A DNA stretch of 64,000 nucleotides from Cyanidium caldarium. Lineage: Eukaryota > Rhodophyta > Bangiophyceae > Cyanidiales > Cyanidiaceae. Positions 2,365-48,511 of the stretch are shown piece by piece. Under the pieces are notes generated by a model. It was not told the DNA's origin and did not search any database. It saw only the letters and a list, made by a program, of their open reading frames with translations. Where the stretch lies: positions 1-64,000 of the forward strand of contig JANCYW010000016.1 of assembly GCA_026184775.1 (NCBI GenBank). Direction: 5' to 3'. The stretch's first letter is position 1; each line of letters starts with the position of its first letter. A program made the position numbers and the translations under genes.

Positions 2365-2403
<39 letters not shown>

Positions 2404-2440
2404 CCTTCAATCACTATTCCGTAATCGGCGATTGTCTTCG

Positions 2441-2486
<46 letters not shown>

Positions 2487-3126
2487 CCTTCAATCAGTAA
2501 TCCGTGATCGGCGATTTTCCTCGATCGGCAATCGGCAATCTCCTTCAATCTTTATTCCGTAATCGGCGATTTTCCTCGATCGGCAATCAGTGATCGGCAA
2601 TCGCCTTCAATCAGTAATCCGTAATCGGCGATTGTCTTCGATCGGCAATCAGTGATCGGCGATCGGCAATCGGCAATGGGCAATCGGCAATCGGCAATCG
2701 CCTTCAATCAGTAATCCGTAATCGGCGATTGTCTTCGATCGGCAATCAGTGATCGGCAATCGGCAATCGCCTTCAATCACTAATCCGTAATCGGCGATTT
2801 TCCTCGATCGGCAATCAGTGATCGGCAATCGCCTTCAATCAGTAATCCGTAATCGGCGATTTTCCTCGATCGGCAATCAGTGATCGGCAATCGGCAATCA
2901 GTGATCGGCAATCGCCTTCAATCAGTAATCCGTAATCGGCGATTTTCCTCGATCGGCAATCAGTGATCGGCAATCGGCAATCAGTGATCGGCAATCGCCT
3001 TCAATCAGTAATCCGTAATCGGCGATTTTCCTCGATCGGCAATCAGTGATCGGCAATCGCCTTCAATCAGTAATCCGTAATCGGCGATTTTCCTCGATCG
3101 GCAATCGGCAATCGCCTTCAATCGGC
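2361..3126. repeat. AATCGGC minisatellite with higher-order units
   Basis: The heptamer AATCGGC is iterated in short runs. Between the runs lies a recurring segment containing CGCCTTCAATCAGTAATCCG, then TAATCGGCGATTTTCCTCGA. The combination repeats about ten times with varying numbers of heptamers, so the higher-order unit differs in length. GATCGGCAAT and its partner ATCGGCGATT can pair locally, giving small hairpins. It is a subtelomeric satellite with no coding signature. Confidence 0.9.
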
Positions 3127-8663: not shown

Positions 8664-10452
8664 GTCTCACCTGCACAAACGCCGTGGGGAGGACGAAAAC
8701 GCAAGCACCGTCAAGCGTCTGCTGCAGTGTCAGATCACGAAGTGTGAGTACATACACAGCCGCAACAGCAATACCGTATTCAACCTGCCACGAATCACGT
8801 TGGCCATTCCGCACGGCGTTCCACACCCCGCCTATCCGTGTCGCCCTCGTCGAGGTTCTACAAAGTTGAATTCTGCACCTGCTTTAGCGCAACGCCCAGC
8901 GCGCGGGCGCCGCCGCACGACCAAACCTGACACTCTAATCTTATCATCATCGCGCACTGCAGTGCCCGAACGACCCATCGCACCGCAAACGGGGGCACTC
9001 GCCGCGGTCAAGCCCGCTCAGACGACTACGTGGCAACCGCGTATTTCGCCCAGTCCGGAGTAGAGTGTCTGGACTGACGAAGGACGCAGCGGGGTCACCT
9101 CGCGGGTCGCGTGACACGCACTGCGCGTTTTTGACTGATACGAAGGCGCTTTAGAGGCTACTCCTCTCCGGTACTGTCCTTCCCGTTGGATCTGCCCCCA
9201 CCTGCCTTGAAGCAACGGAACGTGCACGAAAAATACCGCACCCCCTCGACCAGCTCCCGCAACCTCGCATCCTCCACCTCCACGGGCGCAGAACGCACCA
9301 GCCGCACATCCGAAAACCCGGCCTCCCGAATCAACCTTTGAAAGTCCTCCAAGCACAACGCGCCGCCCAAGCACTCCCCGTACAGCACCTTGTCCTGCCG
9401 CGCCGCCTCCGACAGTTGGCGATCGCAGTAAATGTCCGAAAAGTAAAACTCGCCGCCCGCCCTCAGCACCCGGTACACCTCCGCAAACACGCGCGCCTTG
9501 TCCGGCGACAAGTTGCAGACGCAGTTGCTCACCACCAGATCCACCGACGCGTCCGCCACCCCCACCGGCTCCGTCGACCGCAGATCCTCAATGTACCCCT
9601 TCAGAAACTGCACGTTGGACCGAGACGCATCCCCGAAAAACTTCTCCGCGTGGTACCCCACGTACCGCCGCGCCACCTCCAGCTGACTCTCCAACATATC
9701 CACCCCGATCACCCGACCCGACTCGCCCACCAGCTTCGACGCCAGGAACACGTCGCGCCCAGTGCCGCAGCCCAGATCCAGCACCGTCAGGCCCGCAATA
9801 GACCTGTCCCCGGGTATTGGCGAGCCGCAGCCGTAAAACTTCGCCTGCACCTCGTCGGCCACCTCAGCCAGCACCGCCCGGTGACTCGCCGGCATCGCCT
9901 CCGCCGGGCAGCACGCCGTCGTCTTCAAGTCGGCCGACGTCTTCAGCGTCTGCGAGTAGTACTCCGCCACGCCCGCCACCACATCGTTGTTGTCTCGCTT
10001 CTCCCCACAAGGCGACTTGCACTCACACGGGCTCATGGCGAGTTTGCGGCGCGCGTCACCGTCCCTCGCTCTCGCCTGCGCCCCAATCGCCCGACGAACG
10101 CCGCGGCTCTCGGGTCGAGCGTTGCGGGCAGCGGCTCCTGACGAGCACACCGAGCAAGATGGGTAGGGAGATACATGGAAACCCTCACCTATCCCACTCT
10201 CATCCAGCCTTCCTACCCCTGCTCCCCCTTCACCGCTGCAGTCGCTCCCATCACCCACCCGTCTCCCGCCAGCGACCCCTCCTGACCTCGTCGCACAGTT
10301 TGGAGCCGCCGTCGCTCAACACCGCGACCCCGCACTCGACCCACGGCACGGTGTGGCCGGTGCGGTGACAACCGGTATTCTGACGCGGCCACCGAGGCCA
10401 TGCACAGCGTATCTGGTCGGTGTGTTGGTTACGGCGCCGGTGGCAGTGATCG
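8664..10452. repeat. 1,789-bp tandem duplication, copy 1 (arsM unit)
   Basis: Starts at GGTCTCACCTGCACAAACGC. The identical sequence recurs at 10453, exactly 1,789 bp later. It contains one whole arsM gene on the minus strand with about 500 bp of 3' and 400 bp of 5' flank. I count six differences from copy 2, five of them clustered at about 8894-9010 downstream of the gene and one inside the CDS. Confidence 0.95.
9158..10036 (-). CDS. arsM: Arsenite S-adenosylmethionine methyltransferase, copy 1
   Basis: 292 residues from the first in-frame ATG; the frame is open further upstream but only with GTG. The enzyme transfers methyl groups from SAM to trivalent arsenic, giving mono-, di- and trimethylarsenicals. 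The SAM site is the L-D-L-G-C-G-T-G motif at about 86-93, with an acidic residue at the end of the next strand (V-D, 112-113). The arsenic-binding cysteines expected for the algal enzymes are present: C43 (after an adjacent C42), C70 (in FYGCG), C172/C174 (SNCVC) and C222 (GEC). These sit within two positions of the Cys44/72/174/224 set described for Cyanidioschyzon ArsM. The N-terminus has an extra CEC...C cluster. The twin gene lies in the next repeat unit on the same strand. Cytosolic location is likely because no targeting peptide is visible. Confidence 0.93.
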   Translation of the reverse strand: MSPCECKSPCGEKRDNNDVVAGVAEYYSQTLKTSADLKTTACCPAEAMPASHRAVLAEVADEVQAKFYGCGSPIPGDRSIAGLTVLDLGCGTGRDVFLASKLVGESGRVIGVDMLESQLEVARRYVGYHAEKFFGDASRSNVQFLKGYIEDLRSTEPVGVADASVDLVVSNCVCNLSPDKARVFAEVYRVLRAGGEFYFSDIYCDRQLSEAARQDKVLYGECLGGALCLEDFQRLIREAGFSDVRLVRSAPVEVEDARLRELVEGVRYFSCTFRCFKAGGGRSNGKDSTGEE

Positions 10453-12241
10453 GTCTCACCTGCACAAACGCCGTGGGGAGGACGAAAACGCAAGCACCGT
10501 CAAGCGTCTGCTGCAGTGTCAGATCACGAAGTGTGAGTACATACACAGCCGCAACAGCAATACCGTATTCAACCTGCCACGAATCACGTTGGCCATTCCG
10601 CACGGCGTTCCACACCCCGCCTATCCGTGTCGCCCTCGTCGAGGTTCTACAAAGTTGAATTCTGCACCTGCTTTAGCGCAACGCTCAGCGCGCGGGCGCC
10701 GCCGCACGACCAAACCTGACACTCTAATCTTATCATCATCGCGCACTGCAGTGCCCGAACGACCCACCGCACCGCAAACGAGGGCACTCTCCGCGGCCAA
10801 GCCCGCTCAGACGACTACGTGGCAACCGCGTATTTCGCCCAGTCCGGAGTAGAGTGTCTGGACTGACGAAGGACGCAGCGGGGTCACCTCGCGGGTCGCG
10901 TGACACGCACTGCGCGTTTTTGACTGATACGAAGGCGCTTTAGAGGCTACTCCTCTCCGGTACTGTCCTTCCCGTTGGATCTGCCCCCACCTGCCTTGAA
11001 GCAACGGAACGTGCACGAAAAATACCGCACCCCCTCGACCAGCTCCCGCAACCTCGCATCCTCCACCTCCACGGGCGCAGAATGCACCAGCCGCACATCC
11101 GAAAACCCGGCCTCCCGAATCAACCTTTGAAAGTCCTCCAAGCACAACGCGCCGCCCAAGCACTCCCCGTACAGCACCTTGTCCTGCCGCGCCGCCTCCG
11201 ACAGTTGGCGATCGCAGTAAATGTCCGAAAAGTAAAACTCGCCGCCCGCCCTCAGCACCCGGTACACCTCCGCAAACACGCGCGCCTTGTCCGGCGACAA
11301 GTTGCAGACGCAGTTGCTCACCACCAGATCCACCGACGCGTCCGCCACCCCCACCGGCTCCGTCGACCGCAGATCCTCAATGTACCCCTTCAGAAACTGC
11401 ACGTTGGACCGAGACGCATCCCCGAAAAACTTCTCCGCGTGGTACCCCACGTACCGCCGCGCCACCTCCAGCTGACTCTCCAACATATCCACCCCGATCA
11501 CCCGACCCGACTCGCCCACCAGCTTCGACGCCAGGAACACGTCGCGCCCAGTGCCGCAGCCCAGATCCAGCACCGTCAGGCCCGCAATAGACCTGTCCCC
11601 GGGTATTGGCGAGCCGCAGCCGTAAAACTTCGCCTGCACCTCGTCGGCCACCTCAGCCAGCACCGCCCGGTGACTCGCCGGCATCGCCTCCGCCGGGCAG
11701 CACGCCGTCGTCTTCAAGTCGGCCGACGTCTTCAGCGTCTGCGAGTAGTACTCCGCCACGCCCGCCACCACATCGTTGTTGTCTCGCTTCTCCCCACAAG
11801 GCGACTTGCACTCACACGGGCTCATGGCGAGTTTGCGGCGCGCGTCACCGTCCCTCGCTCTCGCCTGCGCCCCAATCGCCCGACGAACGCCGCGGCTCTC
11901 GGGTCGAGCGTTGCGGGCAGCGGCTCCTGACGAGCACACCGAGCAAGATGGGTAGGGAGATACATGGAAACCCTCACCTATCCCACTCTCATCCAGCCTT
12001 CCTACCCCTGCTCCCCCTTCACCGCTGCAGTCGCTCCCATCACCCACCCGTCTCCCGCCAGCGACCCCTCCTGACCTCGTCGCACAGTTTGGAGCCGCCG
12101 TCGCTCAACACCGCGACCCCGCACTCGACCCACGGCACGGTGTGGCCGGTGCGGTGACAACCGGTATTCTGACGCGGCCACCGAGGCCATGCACAGCGTA
12201 TCTGGTCGGTGTGTTGGTTACGGCGCCGGTGGCAGTGATCG
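10453..12241. repeat. 1,789-bp tandem duplication, copy 2 (arsM unit)
   Basis: Direct neighbour of copy 1 and about 99.7 % identical by eye. It is followed at 12242 by a third, diverged and truncated start of the same unit. Copy 1 is in turn preceded by a diverged tail. The pattern is that of unequal exchange between pre-existing short repeats. Confidence 0.95.
10947..11825 (-). CDS. arsM: Arsenite S-adenosylmethionine methyltransferase, copy 2
   Basis: The second 292-residue ArsM differs from its neighbour at one residue only, Arg248 to His, through one C-to-T change on the plus strand (9294 against 11083). That site is a CpG and lies away from the cysteines and the SAM motif. All catalytic cysteines are kept, so both genes should be active and the pair should mainly raise dosage. 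Having its own 5' and 3' flanks duplicated, it should carry the same promoter as copy 1. It lies about 0.6 kb from NAA15, where single-copy chromosome begins. Subtelomeric amplification of arsenic-detoxification genes fits life in metal-rich acidic springs. Confidence 0.93.
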   Translation of the reverse strand: MSPCECKSPCGEKRDNNDVVAGVAEYYSQTLKTSADLKTTACCPAEAMPASHRAVLAEVADEVQAKFYGCGSPIPGDRSIAGLTVLDLGCGTGRDVFLASKLVGESGRVIGVDMLESQLEVARRYVGYHAEKFFGDASRSNVQFLKGYIEDLRSTEPVGVADASVDLVVSNCVCNLSPDKARVFAEVYRVLRAGGEFYFSDIYCDRQLSEAARQDKVLYGECLGGALCLEDFQRLIREAGFSDVRLVHSAPVEVEDARLRELVEGVRYFSCTFRCFKAGGGRSNGKDSTGEE

Positions 12242-16907: not shown

Positions 16908-16932
16908 CGCGCCTCAACGAAGAAAAAAAAGC

Positions 16933-17081
16933 GGGGCTAGCGGAGACTCGAACTCCTGGTCGCTCGCGCACGGCGAGCACGGACCTCTCGCACGCTCTCG
17001 AACGGGGCACACCCACCGCGCGATGCGTGTAAGCCCGTTCGACGACCCGAAGCGAGAATCATACCCCTAGACCACTAGCCC
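16933..17081 (-). tRNA. tRNA-Pro(CGG) with two introns
   Basis: Read on the minus strand, a 7-bp acceptor stem (GGGCTAG with CTAGCCC), discriminator C, a D-arm with GGTCTAGGGGTATGATTC, and an anticodon stem CTCGC/GCGAG with loop TT-CGG-GT identify tRNA-Pro. A 53-nt insert at about 17045-16993 sits at the canonical site 3' of base 37 and folds as a hairpin closed by CGAACGGG/CCCGTTCG. A second 24-nt insert at about 16980-16957, with its own GCTCGC/GCGAGC hairpin, interrupts the T-stem between positions 49 and 50. Removing both gives a 72-nt cloverleaf with a perfect T-stem CGGAG/CTCCG and loop TTCGAGT. Exact intron 1 ends are ambiguous by one base. Confidence 0.88.
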
Positions 17082-17219
17082 GCGTCGACGAACGATGGCG
17101 CGCCCGAATCGATTATAAAGCGATGGGGGAGGGCGTTTCTGCGGAGCGCAGCAGGGTGTGGGGCGGCATCGCTCGGAAATATTTACACACACACACACAC
17201 ACGCACACAGTTCTCTCGT

Positions 17220-20485: not shown

Positions 20486-21943
20486 ATGTCCAGTTATGAG
20501 GAACGTCTGGCGGCGACGGAGCGGGCACTGGATGGGGGGCGGTCGCCGGGCTCGCCGCGGCACGGACGGGCTGCGGCGTTTGCGGTGGGCAACGGCCGAG
20601 GCGGCCGAGAGTCGTCTTCGAAGCGTGGCTCGACGAGGGAGACACCAGCGGGGAGCGACAAGGACACGAACGTTGTCGAAGCAGGTCGACAACGTGCAAC
20701 GACGGTTGCGACGCGGCGAAAAAAGGGCGGTTCCACGGCGGCGACGGCCGTCAGCGCAACCGCCTCCGCTCCGAGCACGCAACGTCTTCAGTACGACGAT
20801 CCGGCGGCGGTGGCCAGGGCGGAGAAGCGCGTTGTGGTGAAGCGGGTGCCGGCGGAGCGGCCGGTGCGGCTGTTCTCGCACTTGCCGCAGTACGAGCGGC
20901 TATCGTCGGTGGCCGCGGACTTGGGCCTGGCGCAGCGGCAAGCACTGCACCCGGCGGTGGTGCGGGTGGGTTTGCAGCTGGCGCGGCAGATGATCACCGG
21001 CGGCACGGCGCGGGTGGCGGCAGTGATCACGGCGTTGCGGGCGGTGGTGGTGGATTTCGCCCTCGACGGCGCCGACGCGCTGCCCTCGGGGGTGGTGCGT
21101 TCCGAGCTGGAACGCTGCCTCAACCGCCACGTGCAGTTTCTGGTCGATTGTCGGCCGATGTCGGTGGCCGCGGGCAATGCGGTGCGTCTGCTGAAACGGC
21201 GGCTGGCGGCGCTGCCGCTGGGTTTGACCGCGGAGGCGCTCAAGCGGCGTTTGGTGGCGGAATTGGACGAGCTGTTGACGGAGCGGGTGGAGTTGGCGCT
21301 GCGCACCATCGCCGACGCCGGCGCACAGCGCATTCGCGACGGCGACACCGTGCTCACCTACGGCTCGTCGCACGCGGTGGAGTGCATTCTGACGTACGCG
21401 GCCCGCGAGCCACGGCGGCGGTTCCGCGTGGTGGTGCTGGATGCACGACCAACGTACGCCGGCAAGCAGCTCGCCGAGCGGCTGGCGCAGGCGCAGATCG
21501 AGTCGTGCGAGTATGCGCCGCTCAATGCGCTGCCACACCTGATCGGCGACGCCAATCTGGTGCTGCTCGGCGCCGAGGCCTGCACCAGCAACGGCGCGGT
21601 GCTGGCGCAGGCGGGCACCGCCTCCGTGGCGCTGCTGGCTAAACGCGAGCGCATCCCGGTGGTGGTGGCGTGCGAGAGCATCAAGTTCACCGAACGCACC
21701 ATGATCGACTCGATCGGCTTCAACGAGGTCGGCGACGCCGATGACATGCTCGGCGGCGAGCGCATCGGGCCATCTGCACTGCATCCCAGCTGGCGCCGCG
21801 ACCATCCCACGCTGAAGTTGCTGCACCTGGCGCACGACCTCACACCCACCGACATGGTCGACGCGCTCATCACCGAAGTGGGCCTCATCCCGCCCTCCGC
21901 CGTGCCCGCCGTCCTCACCGACCTCCACCCCGACGGCATCTGA
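20486..21943 (+). CDS. EIF2B4: Translation initiation factor eIF2B subunit delta
   Basis: 485 residues. eIF2B is the GDP-GTP exchange factor for eIF2; delta belongs to the regulatory alpha/beta/delta subcomplex. After a 110-residue low-complexity, basic N-terminus, the delta-specific motif LFSHLPQYE appears (about 132-140). The Rossmann-like C-terminal half has DTVLTYGSSHAVE, RVVVLDARPTYAGKQLAE, LGAEACTSNGAVLAQAGT and ESIKFTER, all typical of the family. The last codons are part of an 88-bp tandem array that continues past the stop. ATG at 20486; the frame is open upstream without ATG. Confidence 0.93.
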   Translation: MSSYEERLAATERALDGGRSPGSPRHGRAAAFAVGNGRGGRESSSKRGSTRETPAGSDKDTNVVEAGRQRATTVATRRKKGGSTAATAVSATASAPSTQRLQYDDPAAVARAEKRVVVKRVPAERPVRLFSHLPQYERLSSVAADLGLAQRQALHPAVVRVGLQLARQMITGGTARVAAVITALRAVVVDFALDGADALPSGVVRSELERCLNRHVQFLVDCRPMSVAAGNAVRLLKRRLAALPLGLTAEALKRRLVAELDELLTERVELALRTIADAGAQRIRDGDTVLTYGSSHAVECILTYAAREPRRRFRVVVLDARPTYAGKQLAERLAQAQIESCEYAPLNALPHLIGDANLVLLGAEACTSNGAVLAQAGTASVALLAKRERIPVVVACESIKFTERTMIDSIGFNEVGDADDMLGGERIGPSALHPSWRRDHPTLKLLHLAHDLTPTDMVDALITEVGLIPPSAVPAVLTDLHPDGI

Positions 21944-22111
21944 CATACGTAAACCGAGGCGAAAGTCGATAGCCTGCTCGCAATACGCCTCGCCCGCCGT
22001 CCTCACCGACCTCCACCCCGACGGCATCTGACATACGTAAACCGAGGCGAAAGTCGATAGCCTGCTCGCAATACGCCTCGCCCGCCGTCCTCACCGACCT
22101 CCACCCCGACG
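21908..22111. repeat. 88-bp tandem repeat spanning the eIF2B-delta stop codon
   Basis: Copies start at 21908, 21996 and 22084 (third copy partial, 28 bp), each beginning GCCGTCCTCACCGACCTCCA. Copies 1 and 2 appear identical and both carry the final codons and TGA of eIF2B-delta. Copy 1 is the functional gene end; the others lie in the 3' flank. Confidence 0.93.
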
Positions 22112-47979: not shown

Positions 47980-48511
47980 ATGATGAGGCGCACCGCGGAA
48001 TGCGTCGTGCGAAGCGGGTGGCGTGTAGGGGGAGATGGGCTGGACGGTGCATGGCCGCCCACCGCCGACACCCCTATTCACGCTCTCTATCCTCTTCTTC
48101 CCCTCCGCCCCTATGATGAGGCGCACCGCGGAATGCGTCGTGCGAAGCGGGTGGCGTGTAGGGGGAGATGGGCTGGACGGTGCATGGCCGCCCACCGCCG
48201 ACACCCCTATTCACGCTCTCTATCCTCTTCTTCCCCTCCGCCCCTATGATGAGGCGCACCGCGGAATGCGTCGTGCGAAGCGGGTGGCGTGTAGGGGGAG
48301 ATGGGCTGGACGGTGCATGGCCGCCCACCGCCGACACCCCTATTCACGCTCTCTATCCTCTTCTTCCCCTCCGCCCCTATGATGAGGCGCACCGCGGAAT
48401 GCGTCGTGCGAAGCGGGTGGCGTGTAGGGGGAGATGGGCTGGACGGTGCATGGCCGCCCACCGCCGACACCCCTATTCACGCTCTCTATCCTCTTCTTCC
48501 CCTCCGCCCCT
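47980..48511. repeat. 133-bp tandem array, four complete copies
   Basis: Units begin ATGATGAGGCGCACCGCGGA at 47980, 48113, 48246 and 48379 and appear identical. The array lies between the FKBP start and the MED31 stop, so it occupies the promoter side of FKBP. The unit includes GATGGGCTGGACGGTGCATG and a pyrimidine-rich CTCTCTATCCTCTTCTTCCC tail. Every frame is open through it and none looks coding. Confidence 0.95.

Follow-up and report, generated by a model that had tools for sequence, protein, structure and literature searches.

A nuclear tRNA-Pro(CGG) gene of Cyanidium caldarium with, very probably, two introns, one of them in the T-stem

The locus and its surroundings

Cyanidium caldarium (Cd. 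caldarium) is a red alga of acid hot springs, and Cyanidioschyzon is its sister genus. The stretch of Cd. caldarium DNA analyzed here, hereafter the window, is 64,000 nt long. Its first 31 nt (positions 1-31, no strand assigned) are a telomere-type 10-nt repeat, a rotation of AATGGGGGGG, and its G+C content is 65.67%. For Cd. caldarium the published telomere unit is AATGGGGGGG and the published G+C is 65.7%; for Cyanidioschyzon and Cyanidiococcus the corresponding values are AATGGGGGG and about 55% (PMC13353863). By telomere unit and G+C, both of which agree with the published Cd. caldarium, the window is Cyanidiales nuclear DNA.

Several repeats are found in the window. Subtelomeric arrays of a 29-bp unit and ATCGGCA-type repeats lie near the telomere repeat (26-379 and 2365-3114). 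A 133-bp tandem repeat is present in four perfect copies (47980-48511), and an 88-bp tandem repeat in 2.4 perfect copies overlaps two listed ORFs without Pfam matches (21904-22111). On the minus strand, a tandem duplication of about 2.07 kb (9158-10258 and 10947-12047; 96.9% identical DNA) carries two arsenite-methyltransferase-like ORFs of 366 residues each, one residue apart. The best solved relatives of the first of these ORFs are the arsenic methyltransferases 4kw7 and 4fr0, which we take to be Cyanidioschyzon structures.

The subject of this report is a 149-nt tRNA-Pro(CGG) gene with two inserts, on the minus strand at 17081-16933. The original prediction had placed such a gene at 16933-17081 without naming the strand, and it is there. 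The gene and its flanks are composed as follows, in the 5' to 3' direction of the minus strand:

17113-17118, minus strand: TATA-like TTATAA, 32 nt upstream of the gene
17046-17081, minus strand: exon 1, 36 nt, tRNA positions 1-37 (acceptor 5' strand, D arm, anticodon CGG)
16993-17045, minus strand: intron 1, 53 nt, at the canonical 37/38 site, with a long internal hairpin
16980-16992, minus strand: exon 2, TGCGAGAGGTCCG, tRNA positions 38-50 (anticodon 3' strand, variable loop AGGTC, first two T-stem bases)
16956-16979, minus strand: intron 2, 24 nt, in the T-stem at 50/51 (or 49/50)
16933-16955, minus strand: exon 3, 23 nt (T loop, acceptor 3' strand, discriminator C; CCA not encoded)
16944-16954, minus strand: B-box-like AGTTCGAGTCT, not interrupted by intron 2
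16923-16930, minus strand: T8 run, likely an RNA polymerase III terminator, beginning two bases past the discriminator base

The tRNA obtained by joining the exons

When the exons are joined, the 72-nt product is folded as tRNA-Pro(cgg) by ARAGORN, with its score threshold lowered to 50%. The stems have 7 acceptor, 5 anticodon and 5 T-stem pairs. The two inserts, 53 nt at 37/38 (17045-16993) and 24 nt within the T-stem (16979-16956), are those that the original prediction had named, and their excision leaves the proline cloverleaf that it had foreseen; the assignment to Pro(CGG) holds as well, by the ARAGORN fold and by comparison with human tRNA-Pro. Calling the 72-nt cloverleaf perfect was slightly too strong, because one pair of the D-stem does not form, within a stretch that human tRNA-Pro shares.

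Once insert 2 is taken out, C49 can again pair with G65, and the variable loop again reads AGGTC. Sliding either insert by one base leaves the product unchanged; for insert 2, the position 50/51 is favored over 49/50 because it gives the canonical spacing of the bulges described below. Other second excisions were also tried after removal of intron 1, with 0-44 nt cut out and 70-76 nt left in the product, and several of them also yield full acceptor, T and anticodon stems. Once the loop TTCGAGT and a 5-nt variable loop are required, the 24-nt cut alone survives; in the rejected excisions, either the variable loop measures 3, 4, 7 or 9 nt or the T arm carries a different loop.

The exons are strongly conserved. 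Compared with the published human tRNA-Pro(TGG) (PMC12217144), 55 of the 72 bases are identical overall, and the identity rises to 40/41 over linear bases 8-48, where the sole difference is the first anticodon base (40/42 over bases 8-49). Exon 1 has an exact run of 25 nt in common with the human tRNA, and exon 2 matches human linear bases 37-49 at 12 of 13. The 12-mer of exon 2, TGCGAGAGGTCC, would be expected by chance about 1e-5 times in 112 positions at the base composition of the window.

ARAGORN with preset options finds no tRNA in the 64-kb window. Rfam at gathering cutoffs returns nothing from the window; in the 1 kb around the gene it has no tRNA match at E-values up to 10, and its three matches at loose E-values are all far under the gathering scores. 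Both strands of the window were also scanned for T-arm, acceptor and A-box-like anchors occurring as a pair; this locus alone matches, and the same scan matched none of ten shuffled sequences (one strand each). No other tRNA gene was found in the window, either by ARAGORN at its normal threshold or by a scan for plain, disrupted and permuted genes; with the threshold lowered to 80%, ARAGORN numbers 145 candidates, which we take as noise. A search for relatives by exact exon patterns in the collections genome_contigs and viral_contigs found none.

The splice-site folds

A bulge-helix-bulge (BHB) motif is defined by 3-nt bulges with a 4-bp central helix between them, and by flanking helices (PMC3978253). 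With intron 2 placed at 50/51, the elements of such a motif are:

16982-16985, minus strand: 5' strand GGUC of central helix H, in exon 2
16962-16978, minus strand: inner helix GCUCGC/GCGAGC with a 5-nt loop
16958-16961, minus strand: 3' strand GACC of central helix H, in intron 2

All four pairs of the central helix, GGUC with GACC, can form between exon and intron, and the inner flanking helix has 6 bp. The outer flanking helix has no pairs, so the motif departs from the strict hBHBh' form and belongs to the relaxed one. The frame fits 3-nt bulges CG|U at the 5' site and AG|G at the 3' site; when the fold is constrained to a cloverleaf, however, the final nucleotide of intron 2 is paired in the T-stem, beside pairs that were themselves imposed as constraint, and because of this pairing the bulge at the 3' site would need opening.

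How unusual is this pairing? Among 200,000 mononucleotide shuffles of insert 2, four central pairs are accompanied by an inner helix of at least 3 bp in 991 cases, at least 4 in 377, at least 5 in 153 and at least 6, as in the actual sequence, in 59. The precursor offers 8,256 site pairs. Four central pairs (G-U allowed) plus a flanking helix of at least 3 bp are possible at 44 of them, and the motif alone is therefore not specific. Intron 2 is the only one among the 8,256 to combine four Watson-Crick central pairs with an inner helix of at least 5 bp.

The original prediction had suggested that the second intron is a BHB substrate and that the precursor be folded to look for the motif. With only the cloverleaf pairs imposed, the intron 2 motif forms unasked, at -74.7 kcal/mol. 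The minimum free energy structure of the unconstrained precursor (-75.7 kcal/mol) has another shape, which is not a cloverleaf, and the pair probability of the central helix in the precursor is 0.34-0.35. Taken alone, the 31-nt motif of intron 2 folds at -13.8 kcal/mol, and 6 of 200 shuffles fold as well. In these models intron 2 fits a relaxed BHB splice site, and in that form the suggestion is supported.

Intron 1 follows base 37, and the anticodon stem forms its outer helix, as is canonical for a 37/38 intron. In the strict frame it can form 3 of the 4 central pairs, 7 outer pairs and 2 inner pairs. The central pairs would join the anticodon loop to the 3' end of the intron and include a U-G at position 32; the predicted fold leaves these loop bases unpaired. 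The hairpin within intron 1 is stable (-27.9 kcal/mol, z -3.17), and none of 200 shuffles equals it.

Other readings of the inserts

Both anticodon-stem strands (CTCGC/GCGAG) recur in the hairpin of intron 2. Such a repeat could be left by duplication of the anticodon arm, after which the gene could be spliced in two ways, by removal of 53 + 24 nt or of 77 nt. Two 72-nt forms of tRNA-Pro would then arise. They would differ at five bases, namely positions 38 and 49 and three of the variable loop. We consider this origin improbable, and the repeat was too weak to be claimed as a duplication: random 6-bp stems contain CTCGC in 0.43% of draws, and in 3.0% they include at least one 5-mer from the tRNA's own acceptor, anticodon or T stem.

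A rival reading, absent from the original prediction, has a single 77-nt intron in the anticodon loop, with the GCGAG of the second hairpin serving as the 3' anticodon strand. ARAGORN, with introns allowed and at its normal threshold, chooses this intron in 4/4 runs, and the Pro form of the product is likewise a 72-nt cloverleaf. Three of the four runs call tRNA-Thr(CGT) (cgt in the output), which makes the locus an annotation trap; the remaining one, with another option, gives Pro(cgg). A single intron would, however, lower the agreement with human tRNA-Pro at linear bases 37-49 to 7/13 (12/13 with two introns), turn the T-stem pair 49-65 into A-G, and leave TGCGAGAGGTCC within an intron by coincidence. 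As a splice site it also does poorly: placed at 37/38, the intron allows only 1 of the 4 central pairs, and a shift by one base gives 3/4 or 1/4; the inner helix is absent from all three placements. We regard the 77-nt intron as very unlikely.

We likewise regard it as very unlikely that the 53-nt intron alone is spliced and the 24 nt are kept as a long variable arm. The insert and its flanks do make a stable hairpin beside the variable loop. Retention, however, leaves an A-G mismatch at 49-65, and ARAGORN reads the product as tRNA-?(His|Ala) or, with introns allowed, excises the 24 nt and calls Thr(cgt). We know of no tRNA-Pro with a long variable arm, which also counts against retention. T-arm introns, on the other hand, exist in the clade, in C. 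merolae (PMC9602550). Both the single 77-nt intron and the retained arm fit worse than two introns and are disfavored.

Transcription signals

TTATAA occurs once in the window, upstream of this gene. The T8 downstream is the only run of eight A or T in the window and the longest of either base; the next longest is 6, and the longest T run on the plus strand is also 6. Within exon 3, the position of AGTTCGAGTCT is presumably that of a B-box. TTATAA and T8 flank the gene as they would a gene of RNA polymerase III. For most tRNA genes of C. merolae a TATA-like element lies within 50 bp, and its permuted tRNA genes are reported to have T-stretch terminators (PMC3978253).

On the same strand, the predicted start codon of an N-formylglutamate amidohydrolase (FGase) ORF follows 25 nt past the tRNA (spacer 16908-16932); the Pfam match of this ORF starts at residue 77. 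Given only 25 nt to the predicted start, the tRNA gene may overlap the FGase promoter region.

These signals bear on the idea that the locus is a dead copy with insertions and that the tRNA is supplied by another gene: a eukaryotic tRNA gene with a short insertion in the D or T arm has mostly been taken for a pseudogene (PMC4090602), and a second, intact tRNA-Pro(CGG) gene could lie beyond the surveyed 64 kb, but the conserved exons, the intact stems, the unique TATA-like and T8 elements in place, and the compactness of the genome (published mean intergenic length 319.7 bp; PMC9812998) make a dead copy very unlikely.

Proposed processing and its significance

We are confident in the view that this is a nuclear tRNA-Pro(CGG) gene of Cyanidium caldarium whose two introns are removed by the tRNA splicing endonuclease. 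The features read directly from the DNA are the two-insert anatomy, the conserved exons, the BHB-like pairing at intron 2, the TATA-like box and the T8; from these we infer expression and splicing. RNA polymerase III would transcribe the gene. The endonuclease would cut intron 2 at CG|U and AG|G, in the relaxed BHB motif, and intron 2 would probably leave ahead of the 37/38 intron. A ligase would join the exons, CCA would be added, and the mature tRNA-Pro(CGG) would read CCG. This is the commonest proline codon, with 188 of 276 in eight ORFs of the window (8/8 with Pfam matches). Among the 28 of the 75 listed window ORFs that were scanned with Pfam (20 with matches), none is a splicing endonuclease or ligase gene.

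In C. merolae, introns are removed in the order of motif stability, the 37/38 intron always being last; according to the review the cause could be either stability or position (PMC3978253). In the Cyanidium gene the hairpin of the 37/38 intron is the more stable (-27.9 vs. -13.8 kcal/mol), so the stability and position rules may predict opposite orders, with the caveat that the published energies may be those of the motif core, where intron 1 is the weaker. The gene would best be used to test which of the two, motif stability or position, determines the order in which introns leave.

This gene adds Cyanidium to Cyanidioschyzon as a genus with ectopic multi-intron nuclear tRNA genes. The published estimate for the split of the two genera is about 0.3 billion years (PMC13353863). 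As the gene type is present in both, an endonuclease of broad specificity may predate their split. By its sequence, with two introns and one of them outside 37/38, the gene belongs to the multi-intron class.

Comparison with known systems

The primary account of multi-intron tRNA genes in C. merolae is reportedly that of Soma et al. in 2013. In a literature search at the level of titles and abstracts, none of the matches listed describes a disrupted nuclear tRNA gene from Cyanidium. Two papers presenting Cd. caldarium genomes leave its tRNAs undiscussed in the main text: the word tRNA occurs zero times in PMC9812998 and once, in a reference, in PMC13353863.

The comparison with Cyanidiales made in the original prediction stands. 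In C. merolae over 62% of tRNA genes have introns, and no less than 12 have more than one, three of these with three introns (PMC9602550); T-arm introns of its nuclear genes are found at 53/54 in tRNA-Ile (PMC9602550) and at 55/56 in permuted tRNA-Gly genes (PMC3978253). These multi-intron genes are among the closest parallels. One of them, C. merolae tRNA-Ile(UAU), has introns at 12/13, 37/38 and 53/54: it is likewise nuclear and from the same algal group, and combines a canonical with a T-arm intron at BHB-type sites (PMC9602550). It differs in being another tRNA with another T-arm position, and its splicing intermediates have been seen by RT-PCR (PMC9602550), whereas splicing in Cyanidium is deduced from sequence. 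The permuted C. merolae tRNA-iMet has its junction at the same T-stem position, 50/51 (PMC3978253), but there the halves are permuted, unlike the Cyanidium intron.

More distant systems share some of these features. In the nucleomorph of Guillardia theta, inserts of 3-24 nt occupy non-canonical sites, including the D and T arms, with up to three introns per gene (PMC4090602); the nucleomorph, however, is a relict nucleus, and many of its introns have no defined BHB (PMC3978253). The archaeal introns outside 37/38 to which the original prediction also appealed are on record: crenarchaeal multi-intron tRNA genes have BHB introns at non-canonical sites (PMC3978253, PMC4033280), although in a different domain, Archaea, and with another endonuclease architecture (PMC3978253). 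In sum, multi-intron tRNA genes with T-arm introns were already known from C. merolae, and the Cyanidium gene is a new example in its sister genus.
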